From an uncultured Acinetobacter sp. (GTDB lineage Bacteria; Cyanobacteriota; Vampirovibrionia; Gastranaerophilales; Gastranaerophilaceae), in NCBI GenBank assembly GCA_947306495.1, contig CAMZGT010000001.1, positions 1-64,000 on the forward strand: 64,000 nt of DNA, given 5' to 3'. The translations under genes were made by a program, and so were the position numbers. Positions 33,347-61,184 of this stretch are shown in pieces; positions within the stretch are counted from its first letter, which is position 1, and each line of letters opens with the position of its first letter. Under the pieces are notes generated by a model. It worked only from the letters and a program-made list of their open reading frames with translations. It was not told where the DNA came from and searched no databases.

Positions 33347-33709
33347 ATGCTTATAGAAAAGGATAAACCTTTTTACAATGTCAATCAGGTTGCAGAATTG
33401 CTTGGAATATCTGCAGATAGATTAAGAACCTACGATGAAGAGGGATTGGTATTCCCGCATAGACAACCTCCAAGTAACAAAAGGTTGTACTCTGAACTTG
33501 ATATTGAATGGCTAAAAATTTGTCGTTTTTTTATTAAAACAAAAAAAATGAACATGTATTCAATAAATCTTTTATTTAAATTTATCAGATTAATAAAAAA
33601 ACACAATATAAATACTTTCGACGTATTTAATAAAGATGAACAAATCATTATTGCAGCAATGATAAATAACCCTAATTTCGATAAGGTTATTGACAGTGCA
33701 AGGACATAA
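33347..33709 (+). CDS. MerR-family transcriptional regulator
   Basis: FYNVNQVAELLGISADRLRTYDEEGLVFPHRQPPSNKRLYSELDIEWL; GGAGGGAAG RBS. Confidence 0.85.
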   Translation: MLIEKDKPFYNVNQVAELLGISADRLRTYDEEGLVFPHRQPPSNKRLYSELDIEWLKICRFFIKTKKMNMYSINLLFKFIRLIKKHNINTFDVFNKDEQIIIAAMINNPNFDKVIDSART

Positions 33710-33719
33710 GGAGAAAACA

Positions 33720-34430: not shown

Positions 34431-34435
34431 AAATC

Positions 34436-35275: not shown

Positions 35276-36018
35276 AAATTTTATTCACAATATGCGGAAG
35301 AAAAGGCTCCAAGGGATTAAAAAACAAAAACATTTCAAAATTTTTGGAATATCCTATTTCGTATTACACACTGTCAGCTTATCAATTGTTTAAAAACAAA
35401 CATCCGGAACACAATTGTTATATTGCGCTTAACACTGACAGCACTGAACTTGTTGAACAGGTAGCAAATTTTGGAGAAAAATTCACTCACATAGAAAGAA
35501 CCGAAGAACTTGCAGGAGATAAAGCAGGGAAGGTGGATGTTATTCGTGATACATACGAAAAAATGAACATACCTTTTGATGTTATAATCGACTTGGACAT
35601 AACTTCTCCATTAAGAGCTGTTTCAGATATTGAAGGAGTGTTAAATTGCCTTCTTGCAGAACCCAAAGCAGATTTAGCTTTCTCAATAACTACATCAAGG
35701 CGTTCTCCGTATTTCAACCAAGTAAAAAAATATGAAGACGGTTTTTTTAAACCTGTCAAATATATGGGAGCTACAACCAGACAAGAAGTTCCATCCGTAT
35801 TTGATATGAATGCTTCAATATATGCATATAAACCTGATTTTTTACTTAAACATTGCAAACTTTTCGACGGAAGGACTGTCGCATATGAAATGAAGGATAC
35901 CGCTGTTTTGGATATTGATAATCCGGAAGATAAAGAACTTATGGAAGTTTTAGCAAGATATTTCTATAATCACTATCCGGAACTAAATGAAATCTATAAA
36001 AATATAAGTAATAGTTAA
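35272..36018 (+). CDS. CMP-nonulosonate cytidylyltransferase (PtmB/LegF-like), copy 2
   Basis: [55 protein letters not shown]. Confidence 0.88.
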
Positions 36019-36704
36019 CCTTTTCTAAGATTAACATTAGCTTTAAGAATTTCTATACATTTTTCAATATTGTCAAATGGCATATTATTGACCAAGAAAT
36101 CTTCCGGGAAATCCCACCATCTTAAAGTTAACAGCTCTTTGATAATATCCTCGGGAAATCTGTACTTAACTACTCTTGCAGGGGAACCGACAGCTATTGC
36201 ATATGGAGGAATATCTCTGGAAACTATTGCTCCCGCACCTATAATAGCACCATCACCAATTGTTACTCCGTCAAGTATTATTGCCCTTTGTCCAATCCAA
36301 ACATCATTGCCTATTTTGATTTTTTTATAAATTTCTATAGGAATTATTTTATCTTCAGGGGTTTGAATATCAACATAAAAGGGTACGAATTTATCTGAAC
36401 AATATGCAAAAGGATGTGTTGTTAACATATTTGAGGGATGGTTACCCAGTCCGAGTTTTACTTCTCTGGCGATAGAACAATATTTACCTATCTCCACGTA
36501 TTGAGGATCAGGTTTTGTCCTTGTTCCGATGTACGTATGCTCACCGACATTACAATCTCTGAGAATTTCTTTATATTCCCAAATTCTTTTATTCTGCCAT
36601 ACTATATCTTTTAATTTATGCCTTAAACTCTTTATCGGAAGAATCTTTGATAAAAGTTTAATAATTTTTGTCTTTTTTTTCAATAATTTGATATCATTTG
36701 ACAT
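36015..36704 (-). CDS. CatB-related/left-handed beta-helix O-acetyltransferase
   Basis: [54 protein letters not shown]. Confidence 0.9.
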
Positions 36705-36734
36705 GATTTTTGCCTTTCGAAGTTTAAATTTTTA

Positions 36735-37064
36735 TCATTTTACATTTTTTAAATTGGTAACTGATTTGTGAATAAATCGAACCTTTTCTATATCAAAAGC
36801 CTTTAATATATAAATTATTTCTTCAATAAGCTCCTGCCTTTTTTTTAAATGTCCGAAGTTGAATAAATTATCAACCTGTGTATTTAAAACGGACGCAAAT
36901 TTTTCAATATTTTCTGCTGACGGAAATTGTTTACCTGCTTCAATTCTTGTCAAATTTGTTCGTTCCATTCCGATTAATTCTGCAAGTTGTTCCTGAGTTA
37001 ACTTATTTGATACCCTCAATTCTTTGATCCGTAAACCAAATTTTGTTTTTAATTTTTGATTCAT
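36735..37064 (-). CDS. XRE-family HTH regulator
   Basis: FGLRIKELRVSNKLTQEQLAELIGMERTNLTRIEAGKQFPSAENIEKFASVL. Confidence 0.9.
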   Translation of the reverse strand: MNQKLKTKFGLRIKELRVSNKLTQEQLAELIGMERTNLTRIEAGKQFPSAENIEKFASVLNTQVDNLFNFGHLKKRQELIEEIIYILKAFDIEKVRFIHKSVTNLKNVK

Positions 37065-37111
37065 AAATACGCCCCATTTTAAAGATTAACGTTTATTTAT
37101 AAAATTTACAC

Positions 37112-37156
37112 GCGCTAATAGCAACACAAATTTTTATCATTTGTGTTGCTATGCGC
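37112..37156. terminator. Inverted repeat, terminator-like
   Basis: tagcaacacaaat-ttttatc-atttgtgttgcta (13 bp), flanked by gcgc on each side. Confidence 0.55.
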
Positions 37157-37343
37157 CACCATCTAATCTAAACTCTCTTTTATACAACTGACAATATAAA
37201 CTTTGAGTTAATCTTTCTAAGTTATCAAAGGTATAATGCTGCTAACTTATTTGCTAAAATTAACGACATGATAAAATTAAAAATTTAGCATAAAATTGTA
37301 ACAAAAAGAAAATTAGAAGAACTCTGTTTCTTAATATAAATTT

Positions 37344-38387
37344 TTAAAACTTAATAAACCTTATGTCATCCTGTGCTTTAGCATAATTTTGTGCATTGCC
37401 GATATCAAGCCAATAGCCTCTTATAGGAAAATGACTGACTTTTTTATTCTCTTCTATAAGTTTTTCCATTAGTTCTGTGGAATCAAATTTTCTATTTTTA
37501 GGAATGAATTTCAGCACATCTTTATTTAATAAATAAATTCCCGCATTTGAATAATATGTAAAAGAAGGCTTTTCAATAAGAGAATTGATTTTCTTATCAG
37601 TAGTATCCAAAATTCCATATGGTATATTTATTCTTATATTAAAAGTCGCTATTGACATACTATCTTTGTAGTTTTTGTAATTAACAAAAAAGTCATAGAA
37701 ATCAATATTTGTAAGGACATCCGCATTCATAACCAAAATATCATTATTTTGCCAATCATTAACCAAAGTTAATGAACCTATTGTTCCTAAAGGGGATGTT
37801 TCTTCAATAAATTTTATATTAACATTCTTGTAGTTTTCGCTAAAATAATTTATTATCTGATCTTTCATATGATTAACAGAAATATAAATATTTTTAATTC
37901 CGAAAGAAAGCAGCCTGTCAACATTATGAGCAATTATTGGCTTACCTGCAAGTTCAAGCATAGGTTTTGGGGTATCATTTGTATATGGTTTTAATCTTAC
38001 ACCCTTACCTCCTGCCATGATAACTGCATCTACAGGTATAACAGCCTTTAATTTCGTCAAATCAATGAATTCTATTAATCTGAAATCATCATCAACTTGC
38101 GGAACTATTTTCAGGTTAGCATTTTTATATTCATTTATTTTTTGATAATCTTCAAAGTTTTTTATGTACTTAAAGTCTTTTTTCATGACTTCTGTAACCG
38201 AACTGTCCAAAGTTGCCCCTTTTAATAAACCACGCCTTATATCACCATCCGTAATTGAACCGACTATTTTTGCATTTGTGTCAACAACAAATAGAATCAA
38301 AACCTCTCTTGAACTCATATTGACCATTTTTTCAAGAGCGTATCGAATAGTCTTATTATATAAAATTGTGTTTTTACTTTTTGTCAT
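37344..38387 (-). CDS. CBS-domain + NTP-transferase fusion (PtmE-like sugar-1-P nucleotidyltransferase)
   Basis: CBS region SITDGDIRRGLLKG then VIMAGGKGVRLKPYTNDTPKPMLELAGKPIIAHNVDRL. Confidence 0.88.
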   Translation of the reverse strand: MTKSKNTILYNKTIRYALEKMVNMSSREVLILFVVDTNAKIVGSITDGDIRRGLLKGATLDSSVTEVMKKDFKYIKNFEDYQKINEYKNANLKIVPQVDDDFRLIEFIDLTKLKAVIPVDAVIMAGGKGVRLKPYTNDTPKPMLELAGKPIIAHNVDRLLSFGIKNIYISVNHMKDQIINYFSENYKNVNIKFIEETSPLGTIGSLTLVNDWQNNDILVMNADVLTNIDFYDFFVNYKNYKDSMSIATFNIRINIPYGILDTTDKKINSLIEKPSFTYYSNAGIYLLNKDVLKFIPKNRKFDSTELMEKLIEENKKVSHFPIRGYWLDIGNAQNYAKAQDDIRFIKF

Positions 38388-38436
38388 TATTACCTGCCTT
38401 ATGCCGCTTTTTCTATATGGACGAAACTCAATAATA

Positions 38437-39213
38437 TCAAGCTTCTATCCCCGCATTTCTTGACGGAATTCTTATGGCGTTAGCATTTATTATATGGTCA
38501 TAAACTATTTCTGCAATATATTTGTTTCCCAATTCCGTAAAATGATGACCGTCGCCAATAAAAATTTCTTCATCAGTATTTTTATTTTCTTCTATTTTGT
38601 CAGCCAATAACCTTGTTAAATCAATAAAATGACAATTTTCAAATTGCTCTGACAAAGATTTCATAAAATCATCATAAATATCCGCTTCTTTTTTAAATCC
38701 GTAAGCTCGAGCTAAAAAAGATTCTCCGACGGGACCGATTCCTATACAGAATACTTCATTATTCTGACATGCCTGCGTTACCATTTTTGTATAATATTTT
38801 TTATAAGTCTTTAGAGATGTTTCATTATAGTATTTAATCTTAAGGATTTCTGTACGATGATTGTGCAAAAAGTTAACAATCGGCATACGAAGTCTTTTAT
38901 TCAACTTAGACAGTAAAAACCTTGCCCATGTCGGCAAAGGCCGCGGAGCACAATCAACTATACCTAAAAATATTAAAACAATACCATTTGAATCTGCCCA
39001 ATATGAAGAATCATTATCGTACAATTTTTTAATTTGCTTTATTGTATATCCGCCAAATGATTTATCACAAAGATAGATTTTTTTGTTTAACCTTTCTTCT
39101 AAAAGAGTTTTCAGTTGTTCGTACCATACTCCGGATATTTGCAAATTATCCCCGTATCTGGATTTGCTTCTTGAATCCCCGTAAACTCTGATTATCAAAC
39201 TATTTTCACTCAT
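38437..39213 (-). CDS. SGNH/GDSL hydrolase-like protein
   Basis: VYGDSRSKSR (GDS block), GIVDCAP, IGDGHHFTELGNKYIAE (DxxH block). Confidence 0.75.
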   Translation of the reverse strand: MSENSLIIRVYGDSRSKSRYGDNLQISGVWYEQLKTLLEERLNKKIYLCDKSFGGYTIKQIKKLYDNDSSYWADSNGIVLIFLGIVDCAPRPLPTWARFLLSKLNKRLRMPIVNFLHNHRTEILKIKYYNETSLKTYKKYYTKMVTQACQNNEVFCIGIGPVGESFLARAYGFKKEADIYDDFMKSLSEQFENCHFIDLTRLLADKIEENKNTDEEIFIGDGHHFTELGNKYIAEIVYDHIINANAIRIPSRNAGIEA

Positions 39214-39220
39214 ATAATGC

Positions 39221-40252
39221 CTATATTCTAACCTTCAAATTCTCATTTTCGTATTGTTTTAACCTTTGTATATTTGGCTGGTATTCTTCTATTTGTTCAG
39301 TAGGTTTTTCCCACTCGATTACGCATCTGTCACAATAATTAGGTTCATTAAAAATCATCCCTTTTGCTATTTGCTTAGATATTTTATTATTGAATGCTTT
39401 TTTTAAATTTCTATAATCACCCAGCTCCATTTTTTGGTCAAAATCATCACAACAAAGAGTTACTTTGCCCGCTGCATTAAGAGTTAAGCCTTTCATTATG
39501 TAAGAACATCTTTCCCTGACATCTTTAAGCTTTTTATATTCAAATGAAGAATCTATAATTTCTTGATTTGCAAATTTCATATCTGGTGATGGAACATATC
39601 CCAAATGAGTAAATCTAATTACATCTACGTATGGTGACCAACATTTGACAAAAGCATCTAAATCAGTTTTTTTAGTATATAAACAATGTATTTGTCTTGA
39701 CGGAGTAGGAAGACCTTGTGCACGTCTTTCTTTTACTACGGCATCAAAATTTTTAAGTTTTTCTATAGTTTCTTCAAATTTTAGATTTACGCGAGTATTT
39801 TCATATGATTCTTTATCCCAACCATCAATAGAAAATTGAATAGTATCTAACAACATTAAATCATCGGTAAATTTGTCCATATTTGTAGTGTTTGTGGACA
39901 AGATAAGCGTTCTACCTTTTAGTGTTCTTAATTTTTGAATAAACTTTCCTGCATTTTTATTCAAAAGCGGTTCTCCGTAGGCATATAGCGATAATGTACG
40001 TACTTTCGGAAGTTTTTTTAGTTGTTTAAATATTGTTTCAAAAACTTCTTCTGACATAATATCATTATTATGGAATGGATGACCTTGATATTGTCTTGGA
40101 CAAAACGGACATTTTGCATTACATGCTGAAGCAAAATCCATTGTAATTTGTCTAAAGTGACGTTCTACAAGTATTTTTGTATACAATGATTTAAGTCCCA
40201 AAATGTTATGTTTTATTAAGTTTTTTAAGAAATCTTCTTTATATTTTTTCAT
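39221..40252 (-). CDS. Radical SAM/SPASM-domain protein in glycan island
   Basis: ASACNAKCPFCPRQ (CxxxCxxC), YGEPLLNK, C-terminal Cys cluster CCDDFDQK...CDRCVIEW. Confidence 0.88.
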   Translation of the reverse strand: MKKYKEDFLKNLIKHNILGLKSLYTKILVERHFRQITMDFASACNAKCPFCPRQYQGHPFHNNDIMSEEVFETIFKQLKKLPKVRTLSLYAYGEPLLNKNAGKFIQKLRTLKGRTLILSTNTTNMDKFTDDLMLLDTIQFSIDGWDKESYENTRVNLKFEETIEKLKNFDAVVKERRAQGLPTPSRQIHCLYTKKTDLDAFVKCWSPYVDVIRFTHLGYVPSPDMKFANQEIIDSSFEYKKLKDVRERCSYIMKGLTLNAAGKVTLCCDDFDQKMELGDYRNLKKAFNNKISKQIAKGMIFNEPNYCDRCVIEWEKPTEQIEEYQPNIQRLKQYENENLKVRI

Positions 40253-41376
40253 AATTTTACTCCTAAATCATTAAATTTTTTATTAATAATACCATTTAAC
40301 TTAAAAGTTTTTATTATTTCAAGTATATTTTGAGCAGTATCATTTTTTTCATAAGGATTAACAACATCTGAAAAATCTTTTTGATAACATTCAGCAATTG
40401 CTCTTAAAATGTCATCCTTTTGAGGTGAGCAGTTTATAATTGATTTAGCCTGAATCCTTCCGAATTGGCGATTGCCAATATTAATTGTCGGTTTTTTGAA
40501 AGAAGGAACCTCTATAATACCGCTTGATGAATTCCCGACAACTGCATCTGCGTAGTGTATTGCTGAAAGATACCTTTTCATCCCCAAAGATTTAATATAT
40601 TTTGCATTCTGGTGGGTTTTAACAAAGTTTTCAATAAGTACAAATAATTCTTCATTACCCTTATCGGAGTTTGGAGCAGTTATAATTATACCCGTATCAG
40701 ATAATTCATTAAGAGCTGACAAAAGTTCTTTAAACTGTTCGGCAGAATTTCCTTCCAAAGTAACAGGATGAAACGTAACTAAAAGATTTTTGTCTTTAAG
40801 CTTGAAATTTATTGATTCTTCAAGTTCACCTTTTGACATAAGCGGGACTTTTTTAATATTTTCCACACCTAAAGACCCAACGTTGAAAACTCTTTCCGAC
40901 TGTTCTCCAAGCTGAATAACACGCTTTTTATATTCTTCACAACTTGTAAAATGCAAATGACTCATTTTTGTGATTGAGTGACGAATTGCATCATCAATAG
41001 CACCCTGTGTAATTTCCCCCCCATGAATATGCGCAATAGGAATATTATTAAGCATACCAGCTTGAGCCACGCCAAAAATTTCGTATCTGTCACCTAAAAC
41101 CATTAGTAAGTCAGGTTTTAATTCTTCAAAAACATTACTAAATTTTTCTATTGCTAAAGCAAGTGAAACACAAGGTTCTTTTTCTATTTGTATATCTACT
41201 TTCTTTTCAATCGGAGCGTTTATTTCTTCATACGTTGAACCAAACTTTTCAGATAAATGCATACCTGTAACAACTAACTGTAATTCTACATCTTTATCTT
41301 GTTCCATCATGTCAATTAACCTTGACATAATCCCATAATCTGCTCGCGTCGACGTTACTACACAAATTTTTCTCAT
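40249..41376 (-). CDS. neuC: UDP-N-acetylglucosamine 2-epimerase, hydrolysing (NeuC/LegG-like)
   Basis: VTSTRADYGIMSRLI, VLGDRYEIFGVAQAGMLNNIPIAHIHGGEITQGAIDDAIRHSITKMSHLHF. Confidence 0.95.
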   Translation of the reverse strand: MRKICVVTSTRADYGIMSRLIDMMEQDKDVELQLVVTGMHLSEKFGSTYEEINAPIEKKVDIQIEKEPCVSLALAIEKFSNVFEELKPDLLMVLGDRYEIFGVAQAGMLNNIPIAHIHGGEITQGAIDDAIRHSITKMSHLHFTSCEEYKKRVIQLGEQSERVFNVGSLGVENIKKVPLMSKGELEESINFKLKDKNLLVTFHPVTLEGNSAEQFKELLSALNELSDTGIIITAPNSDKGNEELFVLIENFVKTHQNAKYIKSLGMKRYLSAIHYADAVVGNSSSGIIEVPSFKKPTINIGNRQFGRIQAKSIINCSPQKDDILRAIAECYQKDFSDVVNPYEKNDTAQNILEIIKTFKLNGIINKKFNDLGVKL

Positions 41377-42852
41377 TTATACCTCAGTTTTATTGATATT
41401 TAATGAAAATAACCAATCCAAACTACCAACCTTGTCCTTAACCTTTTTATGATAATCCAGTCTATCATTTATAAAATCCTTTAGACTTTGTGCAACACTG
41501 CCAAAATTTGGATTTATTTCTTTTATATAATATTCTGTCGTTGTTGTTTGCGCTTCGCCGGTTATAAATTTATCCAACATTTCTTCCGAATTTACAACTT
41601 CTAAATATTCAGAATAAGCTTTTTGACCTTCACGAATCCCGAGAATATCCATTTCCGGCGCATCATAAATATCTAAAGCAAAGCAATTTTGATTAATTAA
41701 CTTTGCTTGATACAAAAGTGATGAAAAAATTGAAAACACAAAATCTGACTCATATATGAGTTTAAACATTTCCCTGTCTGCAAGTTTAGAGATTTTAACC
41801 CCATCCGGAAGCCAATCTTGAGGATTGCGTTTATCATTTGGATGTAATTTAACAGTCAGCTCCATATTGTATTTATTCGCAAATTCTTTTAATTTTTCAA
41901 TATATAATTTATCTAATGGAGCAAAAAGACCATGACTTGAAATATATAAGATTTGCTTAGGATTATTTATCGGCTTGGTTTTATATTTGTATTCATACAA
42001 AAAATCACTGCTTAATCTTCCGCCAACTCCTATGTATTGAACATCTTTATTGTAGAAAAATTGTTTATAAAATTCTTTATGTACACTATCTAAAGGATAG
42101 TCATATTTTGCATTAATTCTTGTAGTATCAACAGTACTTGCGTTTGTTATAAAATATTCCACTTTTATTGTATCTACACCGCATGTTTCCGCTTTTGCAA
42201 CTATAGCCGGATACTCATAATAAGCAGTACATTCGGATAATATAACTTTTATATTTTTTAAATCGAGCGAAAAATAATAGGTATAGAATTTTAACAAATG
42301 CTGACAGATATTGTATCTAAATTCTTTAAAATAAATAAGTTTTCTCATCAAAAAAATAGATTTATAAGTATAAAATAATACTTTCAGTCCATTAATAATA
42401 TTAGAATGATTACTGCTTTTCACTATTGGTTTAGTAATTTTGTAACCAAGGGATTTTATAATCTCTCTTTGATCTAATCTGTCATCTATACCAAAAAAAA
42501 CGACATCTGAATAATCTGTTAATTCCAATTGTGTTTCGGATGCGTATTCAAACATCTCTTTGAAACGGATTTTACCTCCGCTCTTTTTTTTAAAATATAG
42601 ACTTATCACTATAACTTCTCGTACAGCTAAAAGAGCACTTTTTTCAAAACTTTTTAGTTTATATTTGTTTATAATTTGCTTATAATAAGAATCTACTTCA
42701 TTATATATTTTTCCGTAATCGTTTGTTTCAAGTAATTTCGTTAATAAACTATCCTGCGGTTCTTCTGGAAAATATTTTTCTCTTAATTTTTTACGATAAC
42801 TTTTAATTGGTATCAAATTTATAAAAAATTTTAGTGCTTTATTGTTAGTCAA
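41377..42852 (-). CDS. Candidate glycosyltransferase (sialyl-/polysialyltransferase- or CDP-glycerol transferase-like)
   Basis: C-terminal LTVKLHPNDKRNPQDWL ... DREMFKLIYESDFVFSIFSSLLYQAKLINQNCFAL; beside nonulosonate genes. Confidence 0.55.
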   Translation of the reverse strand: MTNNKALKFFINLIPIKSYRKKLREKYFPEEPQDSLLTKLLETNDYGKIYNEVDSYYKQIINKYKLKSFEKSALLAVREVIVISLYFKKKSGGKIRFKEMFEYASETQLELTDYSDVVFFGIDDRLDQREIIKSLGYKITKPIVKSSNHSNIINGLKVLFYTYKSIFLMRKLIYFKEFRYNICQHLLKFYTYYFSLDLKNIKVILSECTAYYEYPAIVAKAETCGVDTIKVEYFITNASTVDTTRINAKYDYPLDSVHKEFYKQFFYNKDVQYIGVGGRLSSDFLYEYKYKTKPINNPKQILYISSHGLFAPLDKLYIEKLKEFANKYNMELTVKLHPNDKRNPQDWLPDGVKISKLADREMFKLIYESDFVFSIFSSLLYQAKLINQNCFALDIYDAPEMDILGIREGQKAYSEYLEVVNSEEMLDKFITGEAQTTTTEYYIKEINPNFGSVAQSLKDFINDRLDYHKKVKDKVGSLDWLFSLNINKTEV

Positions 42853-43829
42853 ATCAAATCATCCTCTTTATAATCTCTATGCGCAGCAGTACCTACAATA
42901 GAGTCCCATTTCATTGGCGAAATTCCTGTTGCAGGACGCTTACAAGTCAAATTATTTTCTGTAAGCAATTCTCCTTTTTTTATATCACATTTTGCAACAA
43001 TTGACTTTCGAGCTATTGAAATATTCTTTTTTTCACTTTCTTGCGGTTCTTTAATTCCGGTTCCGAAAGCTTTTTCTACATTTCTTATTGATAGAACCAT
43101 CTCTTTTAGTTCATTCGGTTCTAAACTTGCTTTATGGTCAGGGCCTTCCATATTTTTATCAATAGTAAAGTGTTTTTCAATAATTTTCGCACCCATAGCA
43201 ACTGCCATTACAGGAATTTCTATACCTTTTGTATGATCAGAATACCCAAAAGGCAAATTGAATTTATCTCTCATTGTTATCATTGCATTCATGTTAACCC
43301 CATCGTAGGGACAAGGATACTCTGTCGTACAATGTAAAAGCGAAACCTTACAATCTTTTAATATGTTTAGTGCATCTTGAATTTCGTCTAATGTTGCCAT
43401 GCCGGTTGATAAAATAACTTCTTTTTTATAAGAATTTATTTTTCTTAAGTAAGGTAAATTGGTTATTTCTCCGCTTGGGACTTTAAAAATCGTCATTAGG
43501 GGTGCCAAAAATTCAATACTTTCAAAATCAAACGGAGTAGACAGAAACATTATACCTTTTTTGTCACAGTAATTTTTTAATTCAACAAAATCATTAAAAC
43601 TGAGTTCAAGTTTTTTCAACATATTTAATTGACTATCACTATTACCTGTATTGTCAACTTGATAGTCAGCTTTTTTAGCATCTTTATTTACCAGATTTTC
43701 AGCCTTAAATGTTTGAAATTTAACGCAATCAACACCTGCTTCACAGGCTTTATCTACGAGTTTTTTTGCTAACTCTAAAGAACCGTTATGATTTACTCCT
43801 GCTTCTGCTATGATAAAAACTTCACCCAT
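42849..43829 (-). CDS. neuB: N-acetylneuraminate/legionaminate synthase (NeuB/LegI) with SAF domain
   Basis: FIIAEAGVNHNGSLELAKKLVDKACEAGVDCVKFQTFKAENLV, LSTPFDFESIEFL, ILSTGMATLDEI, YSDHTKGIE. Confidence 0.96.
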   Translation of the reverse strand: MGEVFIIAEAGVNHNGSLELAKKLVDKACEAGVDCVKFQTFKAENLVNKDAKKADYQVDNTGNSDSQLNMLKKLELSFNDFVELKNYCDKKGIMFLSTPFDFESIEFLAPLMTIFKVPSGEITNLPYLRKINSYKKEVILSTGMATLDEIQDALNILKDCKVSLLHCTTEYPCPYDGVNMNAMITMRDKFNLPFGYSDHTKGIEIPVMAVAMGAKIIEKHFTIDKNMEGPDHKASLEPNELKEMVLSIRNVEKAFGTGIKEPQESEKKNISIARKSIVAKCDIKKGELLTENNLTCKRPATGISPMKWDSIVGTAAHRDYKEDDLI

Positions 43830-43868
43830 ACGCTTATTTTACCATAAAATTTATGATATAATTCGAAT

Positions 43869-44447
43869 ATGAAAAATTTAATTCTTATTGGCGGCGGCGG
43901 ACACTGCAAAAGCTGCATAGACGTCGTAGAACAAACTAATGAATATAACATTGTCGGTATTCTTGACTCTCCTGATAAAGTCGGGCAAAAAGTTCTTAAT
44001 TATGAAATAATCGGGACAGATGAAGATATAGCAAAATATGCTGCTAAAGGGTATGAGCTTTTAATAACCATAGGACAATTGCAATCAGCTGATTTAAGAA
44101 AAAATATTTATAAAAAAGTAAAAAACTCAGGCGGTAAATTTGCAACAATAATTTCACCACTTGCATATGTTTCTAAACATTCAAGAATCGGTGAAGGAAC
44201 AATTGTTATGCATGGAGCTATAATAAACGCAGAAGTAGAGATAGGTTCTAATTGTATTATTAACACAAAAGCATTAATAGAGCATGACTGCCGAATTGAA
44301 AACAACTGCCATATAGCTGTAGGTGCAGTTCTTGCCGGCGGAGTTACCATAGAAAAGGACAGTTTTATAGGGGCAAACGCAACAATAGTTCAATATTTGC
44401 ATTTACCCCCTAAAACTTTTGTTAAAGCATCTAGTCTTGTAAAGTAA
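43869..44447 (+). CDS. neuD: NeuD/PglD-like sugar O/N-acetyltransferase
   Basis: NLILIGGGGHCKSCIDVVEQ; hexapeptide repeats GEGTIVMHGAIINAEVEIGSNCIINTKALIEHDC. Confidence 0.93.
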   Translation: MKNLILIGGGGHCKSCIDVVEQTNEYNIVGILDSPDKVGQKVLNYEIIGTDEDIAKYAAKGYELLITIGQLQSADLRKNIYKKVKNSGGKFATIISPLAYVSKHSRIGEGTIVMHGAIINAEVEIGSNCIINTKALIEHDCRIENNCHIAVGAVLAGGVTIEKDSFIGANATIVQYLHLPPKTFVKASSLVK

Positions 44448-44448
44448 C

Positions 44449-45597
44449 CTATTTGCTTAAAACGAGCTCTTTAGAGTTTGATGTTATCGGGTTTTTGTGT
44501 ACCCATTTACCATGTTCGTTTTTCTTGAAGTAGTCAGGATTATAGAATTTATCGACAACAGCCCAAAATTCTTCTTTTGTGTATCCGCAGAATTCACAAA
44601 AATCACGAACGCATAACGGGTCTAAAAATGCATCATGGCGATTTACAAGTTCTATTGCTTCATCCCTTGAAATCATTCCGTAACGTACCATTCTTGCTGC
44701 ATAGTCCGTAGCAAATTGATGACCGAATTTCGGATATTTCATCCAAGAGTGAACAAGGTATGCTCTGGAATCTATTTGGTCGAAATCTTCAACGTGATGA
44801 GCTCTCCTCCATTCATCAGATATATCTTTAAATCCGTTTTCTTTTGCTATTTTGAGATTTTCGAAACTATTCCAAGGTATATAATAAGATAAATATATCG
44901 GATTGATTTTATCCAAATCATTATCACTCAATGCATTTGTTAAGTACAAGTCTTGTGCGCTTACCCCTGCATTGTCAATAAGCTCATTCATATTCATATC
45001 GCATGCAACACCGTTTTTTAGAATGCCTCTTGCTGAATAAGTATCATAAGCATCAGAACCTCCGTATTCATAGCTTACGTTTTCACCGTATACCAACAAC
45101 GATGTGTTAAATTTTAGAGCCATCATAAGCGGATAAGTATATATAAGCCTATCAATATACCAAGTCGGTTTTCCGTATTTTTCAAAACAATACCTCATGA
45201 GTTTTTTCTGAGCTTTTATATTTGGTTTTAAGCTTATAAGTTCACAGCCGAAAGCTTCCGAGATATTTTTAATATTATGCAGACCTGCATTTGTCATCGG
45301 GAAATTATCTTCTACAGTAAATAAAATAGGATTCATGCCAAGCTTATTCTTCATTAAATCAACTTGATAATGCGAATCTTTGCCGCCTGATACCGCAATT
45401 GCGCAATCCCAAGTATTCTTGCCGTTCATGCCTCTGTATTTATCGCAAATTGCCTCTAATTCTTTATAACGTTTTTTCCAATCAATATTTTTTCTGTTTT
45501 CATAACTACGACAAGCAGAACAAATTCCTTCTTCATCAAAACTTATACCTGGTCGTGTACTAGGCATAACACATTTTTTACAATATTTAATTTCCAT
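44449..45597 (-). CDS. N-acetyl sugar amidotransferase (PseA/WbpG/PtmG-like)
   Basis: MEIKYCKKCVMPSTRPGISFDEEGICSACRSYE, CAIAVSGGKDSHYQ; start after ttggag. Confidence 0.92.
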   Translation of the reverse strand: MEIKYCKKCVMPSTRPGISFDEEGICSACRSYENRKNIDWKKRYKELEAICDKYRGMNGKNTWDCAIAVSGGKDSHYQVDLMKNKLGMNPILFTVEDNFPMTNAGLHNIKNISEAFGCELISLKPNIKAQKKLMRYCFEKYGKPTWYIDRLIYTYPLMMALKFNTSLLVYGENVSYEYGGSDAYDTYSARGILKNGVACDMNMNELIDNAGVSAQDLYLTNALSDNDLDKINPIYLSYYIPWNSFENLKIAKENGFKDISDEWRRAHHVEDFDQIDSRAYLVHSWMKYPKFGHQFATDYAARMVRYGMISRDEAIELVNRHDAFLDPLCVRDFCEFCGYTKEEFWAVVDKFYNPDYFKKNEHGKWVHKNPITSNSKELVLSK

Positions 45598-45707
45598 TTT
45601 TGACTCCAACTTTTCATAAATATTATACATAAAACAAGAACGATAATTCAAGTTTTATGAAGTATTGTGCGTAACATTTTATACAAAGTCTTGATACAAT
45701 AAGCTAC

Positions 45708-45935
45708 ATGGACAAGTTTCAAATAATAAAGGAATTTGCATCAAATATTCGTGCAGAGAGAGCCAGAAAGAGGTTTTCTCAAGAATATTTGGCCGAGAAA
45801 GCCGAAATTTCTACTGAATACTTAAACAAAATTGAGCGTGAAAAATATAACCCTTCGATAACTGTCGCCGTTAATCTTGCTATTGCTCTAGGTATAGATT
45901 TGGAAACGCTGATTCCATTAAATAAACTTAAATAA
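45708..45935 (+). CDS. XRE-family HTH regulator
   Basis: IRAERARKRFSQEYLAEKAEISTEYLNKIEREKYNPSITVAVNLAIALGI. Confidence 0.9.
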   Translation: MDKFQIIKEFASNIRAERARKRFSQEYLAEKAEISTEYLNKIEREKYNPSITVAVNLAIALGIDLETLIPLNKLK

Positions 45936-47043
45936 CTCTTACACCGCTAGGTATATTAACCAAACGTTCTTCAATCCATTTTGCATTTGATAAATCTCCA
46001 TGCTCACAATTTTTGAACATCTCTAATTCATTCATCAAACACCAAGCAGGACGGGTCATAACACCGTTATCATTGGTATATGTTAAAAATTCGTCACGCT
46101 GTGCTCTGTTGTCTAACAAAATAGCTTGAAGCCAAAAATTAGACTTAGCGAATTCAGGTTCATCCACAAACCTTTCCCCGAAGAACTCTCTGTAAATAGC
46201 GGCAAGTTCCCTTTTATTAGCCAAAAACCGCTCTAACTTTGAGAATTGTGCCAAGCCGAGAGAAGCGTTGAGATTAGGCATTCTGTAATTATATCCGCTT
46301 TCCGAATGTCTAAATTCCCATCTGTGTGGAATTTTAGCCTGAGTTGTAAGATGTTTTGCATAATCCGCAAGTTTTTCATCATTAAATAAAAGCATACCGC
46401 CGCCACCGGTTGTAATAATTTTATTTCCGTTAAAACTTATCGCAGAGCCCTCTGCCCAATTGCCGGTATGCTTACCTTTATAAAAACTGCCTAAACTTTC
46501 TGCACAGTCTTCAACAAGAGCAACACCGTATTTATCACAAACGGTTTTTATTTCGTCAATTCTGCACGGATGGCCGAATGTATGCATAGGAACAACTGCC
46601 TTAATATCCTGATGTTCTTTTAAATAATCATTAAGCTTTTTAGGACTAAGTCCCATTGTATCTTTGTCTACATCAACAAACACCGGTTCAGCGTTACAGT
46701 ATTTTATTGCATTAGCGGTTGCAATAAACGTCAAAGGCTGCGTAATAACTTTATCGCCTTCTTTTACACCATTTAATTTAAGAGCTAAATGCAGAGCATT
46801 CGTACCGTTAACACAAGCCACAGCTCTTTTTACTCCGCAAAATTTTGCTATGCTTTCTTCGAAAGCCGTGACATTCTTGCCTACGCTTGATACAAAAGTA
46901 GAATCAATGCATTCACAAACCATTTCTTTTTCTTTTTCATCAAAACAAGGCGGATGAAGCGGCACGTATTCATCCGTATTAAATACTCCTTTTATAAAGT
47001 TTACGGTTTCTTTAAAATCAATATCTGTCTTTGTTTTAAACAT
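45928..47043 (-). CDS. legC: LegC-like sugar aminotransferase (DegT/DnrJ/EryC1/StrS)
   Basis: VPLHPPCFDEKEKEMVCECIDSTFVSSVGKNVTAFEES, CVNGTNALHLALKLNGV, AISFNGNKIITTGGGGML. Confidence 0.93.
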   Translation of the reverse strand: MFKTKTDIDFKETVNFIKGVFNTDEYVPLHPPCFDEKEKEMVCECIDSTFVSSVGKNVTAFEESIAKFCGVKRAVACVNGTNALHLALKLNGVKEGDKVITQPLTFIATANAIKYCNAEPVFVDVDKDTMGLSPKKLNDYLKEHQDIKAVVPMHTFGHPCRIDEIKTVCDKYGVALVEDCAESLGSFYKGKHTGNWAEGSAISFNGNKIITTGGGGMLLFNDEKLADYAKHLTTQAKIPHRWEFRHSESGYNYRMPNLNASLGLAQFSKLERFLANKRELAAIYREFFGERFVDEPEFAKSNFWLQAILLDNRAQRDEFLTYTNDNGVMTRPAWCLMNELEMFKNCEHGDLSNAKWIEERLVNIPSGVRVI

Positions 47044-48025
47044 TATATATATCTGCCTTATATTTCTTCAAATTTTCCGGATTAGAGAACCAACTTACGG
47101 TTTCTTCCAAGCCTTTTCTGATGTCATATTGCGGTTTGAATCCTGTTAACTCTTTAATCTTTGAGTTATCACACCACAGACGGTTTACTTCGGAATTCTT
47201 TGGTCGAATTCTTTGCTCATCTGTTACAAACTCTACATCGCTGTTCATAATATCTTTAATCAGATTTAAAGTATCTTTCATAGATATTTCGTAATTGGAA
47301 CCAATATTTATTTCTTGACCGTCTGTGTTGGCACAATTTGAAATCGCCACAAAACCCGAACAAGTATCTTTTACATAATTAAAATCTCTTGTAGGAGTTA
47401 AATCTCCCAATTTAATTTCCTTTTTGCCTGATGCGATTTGAGTAATAATAGTCGGGATAATTGCTCTTGCGGATTGTCTTGGACCGTATGTATTAAACGG
47501 TCTTGCTATGGTTACAGGCAGTTCAAATGCATTATAAAAGCTTTTTGCAATAGCGTCCGCACCTATTTTTGTTGCAGAATAAGGTGATTGTGGCTGCTTA
47601 GGGTGATTTTCATCTATCGGAACATATTTTGCTGTGCCATACACTTCTGACGTCGAGGTAACGATTACTTTTGAAACATCATTATCTATTGCTGCCTGAC
47701 ATATGTTAAGCGTTCCTTTAATGTTTGTGTCAATGTAACTTTCAGGTGCTATATATGAATAAGGTATAGCAATAAGTGCCGCAAGGTGGAAAATAGTATC
47801 CACACCCTTTGTAATATGGCGCATATAAGCACTGTCCCTTACATCTCCACATAGGATTTCTATTTCGTTTTTACAATCAACATCTTCCAACCAACCCCAG
47901 TTGTTAAAAGAGTTGTACTGCGAAAGAGCTTTTACCTTAGCTCCTTCTTTTACTAATCTTTCCGTTAAATGCGAGCCAATAAATCCGTCAGCACCCGTTA
48001 CTAAAACTGTTTTATTTTTTAACAT
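47036..48025 (-). CDS. legB: LegB-like NAD-dependent sugar-nucleotide 4,6-dehydratase
   Basis: VLVTGADGFIGSHLTERLV, STSEVYGTAKYVPIDE, YSATKIGADA, RPFNTYGPRQSARAIIPT. Confidence 0.94.
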   Translation of the reverse strand: MLKNKTVLVTGADGFIGSHLTERLVKEGAKVKALSQYNSFNNWGWLEDVDCKNEIEILCGDVRDSAYMRHITKGVDTIFHLAALIAIPYSYIAPESYIDTNIKGTLNICQAAIDNDVSKVIVTSTSEVYGTAKYVPIDENHPKQPQSPYSATKIGADAIAKSFYNAFELPVTIARPFNTYGPRQSARAIIPTIITQIASGKKEIKLGDLTPTRDFNYVKDTCSGFVAISNCANTDGQEINIGSNYEISMKDTLNLIKDIMNSDVEFVTDEQRIRPKNSEVNRLWCDNSKIKELTGFKPQYDIRKGLEETVSWFSNPENLKKYKADIYNV

Positions 48026-49120: not shown

Positions 49121-50593
49121 CTATTTTTCAAGTTTTTCGAGGCGTTTTGTCAACTCTTTGATTGTTTTTTGTTGAACATCAATGGCTTTTTGCTGTGCCT
49201 CAATTGCTTTTTGTTGCGCTTTTATAGTTTCTTGTTGTGAATTTACGGTTTGTTCAAGTTGTTGAGTCTTGTCAAAATATGATTTTACTTGGTTGGCAAG
49301 CTCAGCAACCTTTGTATCAAGTTCTTTTACTGCATTTATTACAGCGTAAAACATTTCATCCCAACGAATTCTTAAATACCCGTCTTCACCTGCCCAAACG
49401 GAATCAGGAAAAACTTTTTGCAAATCTTGCGCTATAACACCGACTTGAGGTTTCTTTGCTTCGTCTTTTTTGAATGTGTAATGGAAGAAATCAAGCTTCT
49501 TGAGCTGCTCTAACCCTGCTGTGTACTTCTCCCCGACGTTTTTCAAACGTCGGTCGGAAGAGCCAAATGTTCTTCCCTGTGTCCCTTGATCGAATGTACG
49601 TCCACCTCCGGGAGAACTGCTACCTGAATTTTCACTGTTAGTGACATTACTCTCTGTGTATTTGTCACCTAGACCATGTTCGGAGTGATTATCATATTTT
49701 AATCCGTGATCAGAAGTATCATGTATATCTCCATAACCATTTATACATCGCAACCATAAAGAGTTTTGTCCGCTATTATTAATCCCCAAATATGTTTTTT
49801 TCCCTACAACTAAATTCCCTGGAATAAATACTGTACTATCATTACCACCTATTACAATTTGATTGTCAGCAGAAGCTTTTACTCGTGAACCGATTGCGAC
49901 AGAGTTTTCACCTTCTGCCTCTGCACCTGAACCGATTGCTATAGCATATTTTGATAGTGCCCTTGCTCCATTTGTTTGTGTATCCGGGGAACCAATAGCT
50001 ATCGCTTTAATTCCTGTTGCCTCTGCACATGAACCGATTGCTATTGAACCATCTTTAGGATCTCCTGTACCAACAGCTACTGCACTGTCTCCTATAATTA
50101 CATTAGCATGTCCTGTATTCTGAGCATTATTACCTATAACAACAGAATTATGAGATGTATCACGTAATATTTGATCTAATCCGATTGCCAAAATTCCAGC
50201 GTCAATTGAACCGTTGGCGGATCCGATTTGAATAGTATTATCATCATCCCCAATTGCAAACCTGGCTTTATATTGACCACCATTAGAAAACACTATTGCC
50301 GGAATATCAAAGTTTTGCATAGGAGTATCTATTATTAACCTCGGGTGTTGTGTACCTAAACCGCTTATTTCAGTACTTCCAATTATAGCACTGGAATTAT
50401 TACTACCAACCAGATTATACGCTATGCTGTTGCCTGCTAATCCTGTGAAAACCCACGGACTGTCATTAGTACCCGAATTTCGCATCATTTTTTTGGTTAT
50501 CATCGGTGCGCTTGCTGCAGCTATAATTGCCACTATCAACAGCACTATCATCAATTCCATCAATGAAAATGCACTCTTAAATTCGGGTTTCAT
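49121..50593 (-). CDS. Pilin-anchored adhesin-like protein with YadA-type head repeats and Peptidase_S74 chaperone
   Basis: N-terminal KSAFSLMELMIVLLIVAIIAAASAP; SIAIGSCAEATGIKAIAIG-type repeats; SDRRLKN...VGVIAQDLQKVFPD S74 motif; C-terminal coiled coil. Confidence 0.85.
   Translation of the reverse strand: MKPEFKSAFSLMELMIVLLIVAIIAAASAPMITKKMMRNSGTNDSPWVFTGLAGNSIAYNLVGSNNSSAIIGSTEISGLGTQHPRLIIDTPMQNFDIPAIVFSNGGQYKARFAIGDDDNTIQIGSANGSIDAGILAIGLDQILRDTSHNSVVIGNNAQNTGHANVIIGDSAVAVGTGDPKDGSIAIGSCAEATGIKAIAIGSPDTQTNGARALSKYAIAIGSGAEAEGENSVAIGSRVKASADNQIVIGGNDSTVFIPGNLVVGKKTYLGINNSGQNSLWLRCINGYGDIHDTSDHGLKYDNHSEHGLGDKYTESNVTNSENSGSSSPGGGRTFDQGTQGRTFGSSDRRLKNVGEKYTAGLEQLKKLDFFHYTFKKDEAKKPQVGVIAQDLQKVFPDSVWAGEDGYLRIRWDEMFYAVINAVKELDTKVAELANQVKSYFDKTQQLEQTVNSQQETIKAQQKAIEAQQKAIDVQQKTIKELTKRLEKLEK
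49159..49240 (-). repeat. 21-bp (heptad) tandem repeat in the coiled coil
   Basis: SQQETIK-AQQKAIE-AQQKAID-VQQKTIK. Confidence 0.75.
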
Positions 50594-56937: not shown

Positions 56938-58377
56938 ATGTACAACAAAAAATCATTAAAAGCGGAAGAATTTATAAGCCATGAAGAAGTTTTAAGAACT
57001 TTGGCATATGCTGAAAAAAATAAAAACAACATAGAATTGATTGAGAAAATTCTAAAAAAAGCCAGTCCTACACGTAACGGTAAACAAGTACACTGCGAAG
57101 GCCTGACACATGAAGAAGCAAGTATATTGCTTGCATGTGATGATAAAACTGTATTGGATAAAATTTATAAACTTGCCGAAGAAATCAAAGAAGCTTTTTA
57201 TGGTGACAGAATCGTGATTTTTGCTCCTCTGTATCTTTCTAATTATTGCGTTAACGGGTGCATTTATTGCCCTTACCATAACCAAAACAAACATATACTA
57301 AGAAAAAAACTCACTCAAGAAGAAGTGAAAGCAGAAGTTATTGCACTTCAAGATATGGGGCATAAACGACTTGCTATCGAATCCGGAGAAGATCCTATCA
57401 ACAATCCAATTGAATACATATTGGAATGCATAAAAACAATTTATTCTATAAAACATAAGAATGGTGCAATAAGAAGAGTTAACGTAAATATAGCAGCAAC
57501 AACCGTTGAAAATTATAGATTACTAAAAGAGGCAGGAATAGGAACTTATATCCTTTTCCAAGAAACTTATCATAAAGAAAGCTATGAAAAACTTCATCCG
57601 ACAGGACCAAAACATAATTACGCTTACCATACAGAAGCTATGGACAGAGCTATGGAAGCCGGAATTGATGATGTAGGATTAGGTGTTTTATTCGGTCTTG
57701 AAAGATATAAATATGAATTCGCAGCATTATTAATGCACGCTGAACACTTGGAAGCTGTTCATGGAGTGGGTCCTCACACTATTTCCGTTCCAAGAATCAA
57801 AAAAGCGGACGATATTGACCCTAATGTTTTTGATAACGGGATTGATGACGAAACTTTTGCAAAAATTGTCGCGCTTACTCGTATTGCAGTTCCTTATACC
57901 GGTATAATCATTTCTACCAGAGAATCTCAATCGGTTAGAGAAAAATTACTTAAACTTGGAGTCTCTCAAGTTTCAGGTGCTTCAAGAACTTCTGTCGGCG
58001 GCTATACCGAAGAAGAACGCCCAACTGAAACCGAACAATTTGACGTTTCCGACCAAAGAACCTTAGATGAAGTCGTCAGATGGCTTATTGAACAGGGACA
58101 CATTCCTTCTTTCTGCACAGCTTGCTATAGAGAAGGTCGCACAGGCGACAGATTCATGTCACTGTGCAAAACCGGTCAAATTCAAAACTGCTGTCATCCA
58201 AATGCACTTATAACACTAAAAGAATTTTTGGAAGACTACGCAACCGACGAAACAAAAAAAATCGGTGAAAAATTAATTGAAAAAGAAATAAATAATGTTC
58301 CGAACGAAAACGTGCGGGAAATATTAAGAAATAATCTTAAACAAATCGAAAAAGGAAATAGAGATTTTAGATTTTAA
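56938..58377 (+). CDS. hydG: [FeFe] hydrogenase maturation radical SAM protein HydG
   Basis: LYLSNYCVNGCIYCPYHNQN, ESGEDP, C-terminal CTACYREGRTGDRFMSLCKTGQIQNCCHPNAL. Confidence 0.97.
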   Translation: MYNKKSLKAEEFISHEEVLRTLAYAEKNKNNIELIEKILKKASPTRNGKQVHCEGLTHEEASILLACDDKTVLDKIYKLAEEIKEAFYGDRIVIFAPLYLSNYCVNGCIYCPYHNQNKHILRKKLTQEEVKAEVIALQDMGHKRLAIESGEDPINNPIEYILECIKTIYSIKHKNGAIRRVNVNIAATTVENYRLLKEAGIGTYILFQETYHKESYEKLHPTGPKHNYAYHTEAMDRAMEAGIDDVGLGVLFGLERYKYEFAALLMHAEHLEAVHGVGPHTISVPRIKKADDIDPNVFDNGIDDETFAKIVALTRIAVPYTGIIISTRESQSVREKLLKLGVSQVSGASRTSVGGYTEEERPTETEQFDVSDQRTLDEVVRWLIEQGHIPSFCTACYREGRTGDRFMSLCKTGQIQNCCHPNALITLKEFLEDYATDETKKIGEKLIEKEINNVPNENVREILRNNLKQIEKGNRDFRF

Positions 58378-58404
58378 TTTTAATAAAGATTAAAGGAGTT
58401 TTGC

Positions 58405-59601
58405 GTGAATTTGACAAAATCCGAACGACCACATATAGCATTTTTTGGACGTACAAACAGCGGTAAATCGTCTTTAGTTAATGCCGTTACCAATCAGAAT
58501 TTGTCCGTTGTATCGGATATTAAGGGTACAACAACAGATCCTGTAGAAAAATCAATGGAAATTTTACCCCTTGGTCCCGTTGTAATAATTGATACTGCGG
58601 GGGTAAATGATGGGGTAAATGATGCAGAAAATAAATTAGGTCAATTAAGAGTCAAAAAAACAATGCAAGTTTTAGGTAAAACCGATATTGCCGTACTTGT
58701 AGTTGATTCAACTATTGGATTACAAAAAGAAGATGAAGAATTAATCAAGGTTTTTGAAGAAAGAAAAATACCTTATTTGATTGGATTTAATAAAAGTGAC
58801 TTATTTCCCCACACCTCTAACTCCACCCTTAATGAAGCGGGAGAAAAGTTATACCTTTCTGCAAAAACAGGTGAAGGGATATACGAGTTAAAAGAAAAAC
58901 TCGGACATATTTTTAATGAAAACAAGAAAGAAAAATATATAATTAAAGACAAATTAAAACAGGGGGATATAGTTATTCTGGTAATACCGATTGACGAATC
59001 TGCACCAAAAGGCAGAATTATATTGCCTCAACAAAATGTATTGAGAGAGTGTCTTGACGCTCACACAAATGTAATTTGTACTCAGCCTGAAAATTTGAAA
59101 GAAATTTTAAATAAAATTACACCAAACCTTGTTATTACTGATTCACAGGCGTTTAATAAGGTAAAAGAAATCGTACCTGAAAACATTATTTTGACCTCTT
59201 TTTCAATACTTATGGCAAAATATAAAGGCAAATTGGAAGAACTTGTAATCGGTGCGGAAACAATATCGAAACTAAATGACGGAGATAAAGTTTTGATTTC
59301 CGAAGCCTGCACTCACCACAGACAATGTAACGACATAGGAACTGTGAAATTTCCGAAATGGATAAAAGATTTTTCGGGTAAAAATATAGAATTCGAATTT
59401 ACACAAGGCGGAGAGTTCCCTCAGGATTTGAGCAATTATAAACTCATAGTACATTGCGGGGGTTGTATGATTAATGAAGCCGAAATGCAATCTCGTATAA
59501 AAAAAGCAAAAGAACAAAATATTCCAATCGTAAACTACGGAATGGCAATTGCATATATGAACGGGATTTTAGACAGAGCGTTGGAGATTTTTGATAAATA
59601 A
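58405..59601 (+). CDS. hydF: [FeFe] hydrogenase maturation GTPase HydF
   Basis: IAFFGRTNSGKSSLVNAVTNQ, DTAGVND; C-terminal CTHHRQCNDIGTVKFPKW ... HCGGCMIN cluster ligands. Confidence 0.97.
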   Translation: MNLTKSERPHIAFFGRTNSGKSSLVNAVTNQNLSVVSDIKGTTTDPVEKSMEILPLGPVVIIDTAGVNDGVNDAENKLGQLRVKKTMQVLGKTDIAVLVVDSTIGLQKEDEELIKVFEERKIPYLIGFNKSDLFPHTSNSTLNEAGEKLYLSAKTGEGIYELKEKLGHIFNENKKEKYIIKDKLKQGDIVILVIPIDESAPKGRIILPQQNVLRECLDAHTNVICTQPENLKEILNKITPNLVITDSQAFNKVKEIVPENIILTSFSILMAKYKGKLEELVIGAETISKLNDGDKVLISEACTHHRQCNDIGTVKFPKWIKDFSGKNIEFEFTQGGEFPQDLSNYKLIVHCGGCMINEAEMQSRIKKAKEQNIPIVNYGMAIAYMNGILDRALEIFDK

Positions 59602-59605
59602 AATA

Positions 59606-59815
59606 TTATTCTGTTCCCAAAAGTTTATCGACTATTTTTTGCATTTTATCTAAATCTTTCAGCAATTTCTTTTTACATCTTTCGGTTTTGCGCACCGCTT
59701 TGAATATAACAAAATTTTCATCTAAACAATATTCATCCAGATTATTTGCAATTGAGTATAATCTGTCCAGAGGCTTAAACGTTTTTGCTAACAATTTTGC
59801 TTCTTTTTCGTTCAT
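59606..59815 (-). CDS. Hypothetical small charged helical protein
   Basis: MNEKEAKLLAKTFKPLDRLYSIANNLDEYCLDENFVIFKAVRKTERCKKKLLKDLDKMQKIVDKLLGTE; ggaggtg RBS. Confidence 0.65.
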   Translation of the reverse strand: MNEKEAKLLAKTFKPLDRLYSIANNLDEYCLDENFVIFKAVRKTERCKKKLLKDLDKMQKIVDKLLGTE

Positions 59816-59931
59816 ACACACCTCCAATTTAACACCTTTTAATCATATTATATACTAAAGGTATTATATTGGCAACTTAATAAGTTGTTTAAGGGGTTAT
59901 ATCACTTTATTCAATTTTTTATAATTCAATT

Positions 59932-60162
59932 ATGAATGACACAGAGTTAAAATTAAGAAAAGTTTTAGCATTAAATATACGCGTTGCACGGACAAGAAAA
60001 CAAATTACGCAAGAAACTCTTGCTGAATTATCCGACATATCAGTTAAGCATGTAACTAAAATTGAGAATGCACAAGTAACAACCAGTATATATTTTATTT
60101 ACAGAATTGCACAAGCGTTAAATGTAACTATTGATGAACTTGTTACGGAATACAAAAAATAA
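59932..60162 (+). CDS. XRE-family HTH regulator
   Basis: NIRVARTRKQITQETLAELSDISVKHVTKIENAQVTTSIYFIYRIAQALNV. Confidence 0.88.
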   Translation: MNDTELKLRKVLALNIRVARTRKQITQETLAELSDISVKHVTKIENAQVTTSIYFIYRIAQALNVTIDELVTEYKK

Positions 60163-60200
60163 AAGTCAATTTATGATAGAATAAATTTGGCGATTTTATT

Positions 60201-61184
60201 ATGAACAAACAAGAAATTATTGATATTCTATCCGATAATACAAATAACGATTGGCTTTTTTCGGAAGCCGATAAAATTCGCCATGAAAATGTCGGCGATG
60301 AAGTTCATCTGCGTGGTTTGATTGAATTTTCTAATATTTGCAAACGCCAATGTAAATATTGCGGACTGCGTTCAGCCAACAAACAAGTACAAAGATACAG
60401 AATTTTTAAAGATGAAATTATTAACAGCGTACAAAAGGCCGTAAAACTTGGCTATAAAACTATTGTTCTACAATCAGGTGAAGATGATTTCTACGATACA
60501 GATAAAATAGTTGAAATAATAAGAGAAATCAAATTTTTCGATGTAGCACTAACTCTTAGTATTGGTGAAAAAACTTATGATGAGTATAAAGCTTTTAAAG
60601 ATGCAGGAGCAGACAGATACCTTTTAAGAATTGAAACAACCGATAAAAATTTATACAAAAACTTGCATCCGGGGGTAAATATAGAAAATAGGTTTAGATG
60701 TCTTTATGACCTAAAATCACTAGGATACGAAACCGGAACGGGGTGTCTCGTGGGACTGCCGAATCAAACAATAGAATCACTGGCAGACGACATTTTATTT
60801 TTTAAAGAACTTGATGCTGACATGGTTGGAATAGGACCATTTATTGCGCACAGTCAAACTCCGCTCAAAGATGCTAAAAACGGTGATTTTTGGCTTGCAC
60901 TGAAAGTTATGGCATTAACCAGAATTAATATTCCAAACATAAATATACCTGCAACAACAGCAATGGAAACGTTGAACCCGAACGGAAGAATTATTGCACT
61001 TAAAAGCGGTGCAAACGTAGTTATGCCAAACGTTACATCTATAGAATATCGTGCAAAATACGAAATCTATCCAAATAAAATTTGTCTGAACGAGCAGCCC
61101 GAACAATGTAGAAATTGCATTGAAGCTAAAATTAAATCTATCGGCAGAACCATTTCAAATAAAAAAGGGGTTCGAGAGAAATAA
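60201..61184 (+). CDS. hydE: [FeFe] hydrogenase maturation radical SAM protein HydE
   Basis: LIEFSNICKRQCKYCGLR, VLQSGED, GCLVGLPNQT, GIGPFIAHSQTPL. Confidence 0.95.
   Translation: MNKQEIIDILSDNTNNDWLFSEADKIRHENVGDEVHLRGLIEFSNICKRQCKYCGLRSANKQVQRYRIFKDEIINSVQKAVKLGYKTIVLQSGEDDFYDTDKIVEIIREIKFFDVALTLSIGEKTYDEYKAFKDAGADRYLLRIETTDKNLYKNLHPGVNIENRFRCLYDLKSLGYETGTGCLVGLPNQTIESLADDILFFKELDADMVGIGPFIAHSQTPLKDAKNGDFWLALKVMALTRINIPNINIPATTAMETLNPNGRIIALKSGANVVMPNVTSIEYRAKYEIYPNKICLNEQPEQCRNCIEAKIKSIGRTISNKKGVREK

Follow-up and report, generated by a model that had tools for sequence, protein, structure and literature searches.

A gene that begins like a type IV prepilin and continues with parts of trimeric adhesins and phage tail fibres raises the question of how its product is folded and by which machine it might reach the cell surface. 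The gene lies in a window of 64,000 nucleotides (the whole stretch of DNA that was analysed) from a gut relative of the cyanobacteria, and a preliminary description had attributed to its product a pilin-like N-terminus, YadA-like head repeats, a self-cleaving Peptidase_S74 chaperone and a C-terminal coiled coil, taken to suggest an unusual route by which a trimeric surface fibre is assembled through a pilus or type II-like machine.

Domain architecture of the fibre protein

The gene encodes, in this order, a prepilin leader, a hydrophobic helix, a YadA-like head, a variable tip, an S74 chaperone and a coiled coil (Table 1), and the joint presence of prepilin segment, head, S74 and coil in one protein is near certain. 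In the Pfam search of the 490-aa protein, Peptidase_S74 was matched at residues 346-399 (E=3.5e-13, 50.1 bits versus a cut-off of 22) and YadA_head (PF05658) in two stretches (E=1.2e-9, 38.7 bits versus a cut-off of 25). N_methyl (PF07963) at residues 7-28 fell slightly below its cut-off of 21.2 in hmmscan (E=2.9e-4, 20.7 bits) and exceeded it in a profile search of the whole genome (24.6 bits), while the prepilin-leader model TIGR02532 of NCBI scored 22.4 bits (cut-off 16.3). The pilin-like N-terminus, the head repeats and the S74 domain, the last with an intact Ser346/Lys351 dyad, are thus borne out. A scan for promoters and terminators of the gene gave nothing above chance level.

Table 1. 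Positions of the fibre gene, its parts and the tandem arrays of related genes. Coordinates without a prefix are those of the window; those with a prefix refer to the loci named.
Feature	Residues	Coordinates	Strand	Basis or remark
Whole fibre gene	1-490	49121..50593	(-)	ORF, ATG start, 490 aa
Class III prepilin leader (MKPEFKSA)	1-8	50570..50593	(-)	N_methyl, TIGR02532; similar leaders in relatives
Hydrophobic helix	9-38	50480..50569	(-)	Glu13 = mature Glu5; Pro30 = mature Pro22
Beta-rich linker or base after the helix	39-140	50174..50479	(-)	Alignment, structure model
YadA-like beta-roll head (probable fold), AIG repeats	141-262	49808..50173	(-)	PF05658, structure model, Foldseek
Hypervariable segment, right before the predicted cut	263-345	49559..49807	(-)	Alignment, paralogue comparison
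Peptidase_S74 / intramolecular chaperone domain	346-432	49298..49558	(-)	Pfam; profile matches to structures
Predicted nucleophile and cut site	Ser346	49556..49558	(-)	Invariant in alignment; equivalent to MyRF S587, endoNF S911
Predicted general base of the Ser-Lys dyad	Lys351	49541..49543	(-)	Invariant in alignment
C-terminal coiled coil of the chaperone, QQKAI heptads	433-490	49124..49297	(-)	Structure predictions
Prepilin-S74 tandem operons		L074:3235-6803, L131:1068-5027, L139:969-7629, L146:903-5377, L147:760-4934		Two or three genes

The head repeats are not an effect of composition, since the protein has nine AIG or [AV][IV]IG motifs, while 2000 shuffles of the same protein gave 0.5 on average and 4 at most. 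The head, the final stretch of which reads STVFIPGNLVV, reaches a pLDDT of ~92 at residues 190-250 in a full-length model with 61 overall. Its best Foldseek matches are the heads of the trimeric autotransporters BoaA, BpaC and YadA (2xqh, 3s6l, 7o23), with probabilities of 0.84-0.99 but E-values of 0.0065-0.08, and the modelled fold is probably a left-handed beta-roll. No YadA anchor family was matched at the C-terminus in profile searches; the protein ends in S74 and coil.

The best PHROGs matches are tail fibres, some of them spanning both the head and the S74 parts. All domains of the preliminary description hold, although the pairing of head repeats with S74 is already known from tail-fibre-like proteins, so that it is the prepilin N-terminus that stands out as unusual. 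The best matches of the S74 and head parts are to phage tail-fibre families, as would suit a prophage tail-fibre gene, or a chimera of pilin and tail-fibre genes produced by assembly or annotation, but such an origin is scarcely credible. Eighty full-length members with the same domain order rule out an assembly chimera, no phage genes lie nearby, and a prepilin start was found in 0 of 33 viral S74 loci, some of whose ORFs run past the fetched stretch. No close viral relative was confirmed with the full fibre protein, and the phage and plasmid matches listed align only with the S74 region, at ~41% identity or less.

The chaperone, its predicted cut and the variable tip

The S74 profile matches the solved structures of the MyRF ICA domain (7dc3), a tail fibre (8jov), 6f45 and 3gud, among which MyRF is the best. 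S587 and K592 of MyRF correspond to S911 and K916 of endoNF; both residues are required for the cut, S587A or K592A alone abolishing it, and trimerisation is its prerequisite (PMC8326128). The dyad of the fibre protein is likewise a Ser and a Lys at a spacing of five (S346/K351), and S346, D347, R349 and K351 of the S-D-x-R-x-K site are invariant among 67 aligned members, which makes trimer-dependent self-cleavage at Ser346 likely. A single-chain prediction of the S74 core was of low confidence and yielded no S74 fold and no useful fold match, an outcome to be expected should the fold require three chains.

S74 might only fold and trimerise the protein, cutting having been lost, and the mature fibre would then keep S74 and coil at its tip. 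Cleavage is not visible in a sequence, and Cys replaces Ser in two partial members, but the four site residues are invariant in the 67 full-length members, where an unused dyad would be expected to drift, and the substitutions in MyRF show that cutting depends on it; loss of cutting is accordingly improbable. The two partial ORFs (L062:286-759 and L067:5813-6265) read CDRRLK at the site and may represent a Cys nucleophile or a non-cutting form.

The C-terminus is predicted as one long helix (residues 411-489), in which the coil has a pLDDT of ~66-94 in the full-length model and mostly 91-98 in a second prediction. The coiled coil of the preliminary description is thus retained as a structure, although not as a part of the mature fibre: it lies past the cut site, so that it would serve assembly of the chaperone and then be discarded with it.

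On the other side of the predicted cut lies the most variable part of the protein. Among the 67 aligned members, mean identity to the consensus is 0.67 in S74, 0.60 in the hydrophobic helix, 0.42 in the head and 0.28 in the coil, while in the hypervariable segment identity (0.14) and occupancy (0.53) are the lowest of all segments. The paralogues within genome G340 show the same pattern in DNA, with 77-93% identity at the start of the genes, 83-94% in S74 and coil, and 58-76% (87% in one pair) in the final 180 bases ahead of the cut; this contrast between conserved ends and variable tip is weaker in the G020 paralogues. The most variable segment overall would be the free distal end exposed by the predicted cleavage, and its variability looks like the pattern that a receptor-binding tip would show.

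Distribution within the order and the pilus machinery of the host

The fetched loci contain 80 distinct full-length prepilin-S74 proteins from three families of Candidatus Gastranaerophilales, each of which has Glu5 and an S-D-x-x-[LM]-K site, and a genome has from one to ~12 such genes. When 67 members were scanned, S74 was matched in all, N_methyl in 61 and YadA_head in 27, and many of the others have related NxAIGxxA repeats by eye. The family search found matches to the fibre protein in 82 of 146 genomes. In the phylum, 107 of 386 genomes have S74 over the cut-off, the majority of them in the same family as the source; outside it, two further families of the order account for three, and 12 lie elsewhere in the phylum. 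Each genome examined from the two other families has three S74 genes in a row, with a prepilin segment wherever the start is readable. In other cyanobacterial families, by contrast, 0 of 12 S74 genes have a prepilin start, although some of these ORFs run past the fetched stretch. A broad public genome scan for close relatives returned loci titled Candidatus Gastranaerophilales, Melainabacteria, or gut or rumen bacteria. The distribution looks like that of an ancestral prepilin-S74 fusion retained in the order. Several genomes of the source's genus have no S74 protein, and the S74 fibre is therefore not essential for pili.

Prepilin-S74 genes are sometimes arranged in tandem (Table 1). Touching or nearly touching pairs occur in L074, L130, L131, L146 and L147, L139 has three genes in a row, and in L066 two more prepilin-like genes follow directly downstream in the same direction. 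In the tree, the first and the second genes of the pairs form separate clades (support 100/99 and 100/100), and such old, conserved tandems speak for a functional module that has been maintained. Their products could form mixed trimers or composite tips. Contigs break inside prepilin-S74 genes in L057, L062, L065, L070, L200, L201, L203 and L204; similar paralogues break assemblies, so draft genomes probably understate the number of copies.

The source genome (1.65 Mb in 60 contigs, 92% complete) has a single S74 gene. The prepilin peptidase (PilD) that the preliminary reading needs is encoded once, with both A24_N and A24 domains, and an operon encodes a secretin, PilB (MshEN and T2SSE) and PilC (T2SSF); there are also two PilT-like ATPases. 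The genome thus encodes a pilus machine that could process and export a prepilin. Fourteen proteins of the genome have prepilin leaders over the N_methyl cut-off. Among them is a second protein of the window (24548-25216), and several have the TLAEILITLGIIGVVAALTAPSLV helix in common, which marks a lineage-expanded pilin family.

No pilus operon surrounds the fibre gene in the source genome. The gene stands alone between those for pyruvate:ferredoxin oxidoreductase and a small membrane protein, and its neighbours, which also include ferritin, are housekeeping genes. Some other gene groups of the window were named by eye. A cluster resembling sialic or legionaminic acid synthesis (31697-48025), in which the ORF translations include NeuA-, NeuB- and NeuC-like proteins, a sugar dehydratase, an aminotransferase and an N-acetyl sugar amidotransferase, ends ~1.1 kb from the fibre gene and could serve surface or pilin glycosylation. 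A run of respiratory complex I genes, seemingly without the NADH-input subunits, occupies 13101-22231, and HydG-, HydF- and HydE-like hydrogenase maturation genes occupy 56938-61184.

At the N-terminus of the fibre protein, PilD is predicted to cut between Ala8 and Phe9, and the relatives have short basic leaders of the same kind ahead of F/Y/V. Glu13 and Pro30 (mature Glu5 and Pro22) are invariant among the 67 aligned members, and Trp47 and Gly72 in the following linker or base are almost so. In the full-length model, the helix is predicted at residues 11-39 and gives way to beta strands. A pilin globular domain is not apparent beyond the end of the helix at about residue 39, where pLDDT is ~50. 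Such a short helix (~29 residues) without a pilin globular domain, encoded away from the pilus operon, might be a membrane anchor only, which would leave the fibre on the inner membrane or partway into the periplasm and never in a pilus. This is rather unlikely, because a plain anchor needs neither Glu5 nor Pro22, the basic leader is retained, the hypervariable tip suggests exposure to changing targets, and a short fibre held at the inner membrane could scarcely reach through the outer one. Alternatively, the protein might be a secretion substrate resembling a pseudopilin, which after PilD processing is pushed out or released via the secretin in the form of a free trimeric fibre. The host does encode a secretin, an ATPase and a platform protein of T2SS/T4P type, but the retention of the hydrophobic helix and its Glu5 speaks for incorporation into a filament, and we regard release of a free fibre as very improbable.

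We therefore favour, as the probable nature of the protein, a self-trimming trimeric adhesive fibre with a prepilin anchor that the type IV pilus machine of the cell displays, most probably as a minor subunit at the tip. The trimeric surface fibre of the preliminary description is supported as the best interpretation, and the order-wide conservation of the complete architecture strengthens it; trimerisation, self-cleavage and display are the steps that we infer, display from the conservation of Glu5, the pilus machine and the precedents of CofB/TcpB and of grafted pilins. The lack of a visible pilin head and of operon linkage in the source genome speak against display on a pilus. As judged from leader and helix, the prepilin N-terminus would insert the protein into the inner membrane so that its C-terminus lies in the periplasm. 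By analogy with known S74 proteins, three S74 and coiled-coil domains would then meet and nucleate a trimer, which would zip up the YadA-like head and the variable tip. The Ser346/Lys351 dyad would cut at Ser346, upon which the 145-residue chaperone would leave and the hypervariable segment would become a free end. The single prepilin peptidase would cut at its site between Ala8 and Phe9, and the helices bearing Glu5 would enter a pilus via PilB, PilC and the secretin that the genome encodes, carrying the fibre out of the cell. The function might be binding of diverse gut targets; where a genome has several paralogues, their repertoire differs in the tip. More tentatively, and with somewhat less than even confidence, the whole order of gut bacteria might build pilus-borne tail fibres, with a self-cutting phage-type chaperone, repertoires of tips and perhaps composite tips encoded by operons.

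Precedents and relation to known systems

If the proposal is true, it joins two machines hitherto regarded as separate, phage-type trimeric receptor-binding fibres with their disposable folding helper and bacterial type IV pili, and it provides a periplasmic folding route for long trimeric fibres without an outer-membrane barrel. The prepilin-S74 fibre is also a testable hypothesis for the attachment of the largely uncultured Gastranaerophilales to gut partners or surfaces. Each part is known singly; together they would make a modular pilin-anchored fibre, probably located at the tip, with a phage-type self-releasing chaperone. A literature search, mostly outside subscription papers, found no work that joins the S74/endosialidase chaperone with pilins in a relevant way.

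Trimeric S74 fibres and tailspikes of phages (endoNF, T5-like L-shaped fibres) are, like the proposed fibre, folded by a C-terminal S74 domain and cut by a Ser-Lys dyad, but their N-terminus binds the virion, whereas the fibre protein has a pilus-type membrane helix instead. Trimeric autotransporters (YadA, BoaA, EibD) share the YadA-head repeats and the probable left-handed beta-roll; they differ from the fibre protein in the anchor barrel, which is not matched in the latter, and in the export route. We know of no obligate trimers or intramolecular chaperone among the modules of Streptococcus sanguinis PilB and PilC. These two pilins are similar to the fibre in that the signal and helix of a type IV pilin carry a grafted adhesive module (PMC8179133, PMC10191384), and pilins carrying grafted adhesive domains are described as common (PMC10191384). 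MyRF, a membrane transcription factor of animals, likewise has S74/ICA with a self-cutting dyad on a membrane protein (PMC8326128); its cut frees the transcription factor, whereas in the fibre protein the chaperone would be set free and the fibre would stay on its anchor. The PilV tip adhesins of IncI plasmids with shufflons also combine a constant prepilin N-terminus with a distal adhesive end that varies (PMC9045228). In PilV, however, a site-specific recombinase swaps the 3' ends, while the variable tips of the fibre proteins are flanked by conserved sequence on both sides and belong to separate paralogous genes, and no shufflase was recognised by eye beside the prepilin-S74 arrays with listed ORFs.

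The type IVb minor pilins CofB and TcpB are homotrimers at the pilus tip, where the trimer starts pilus assembly, and like the fibre protein they have beta-rich domains after a prepilin N-terminus (PMC9565799, PMC10191384). No such chain was found among the PDB matches up to E=1. Unlike the fibre protein, CofB and TcpB have a pilin-like domain 1 and an H-type lectin-like domain 3, and the accounts consulted describe neither an S74 chaperone nor a self-cut in them. By analogy, the fibre protein may work like the tip trimer of CofB/TcpB, or like a modular pilin equipped with parts of a tail fibre.
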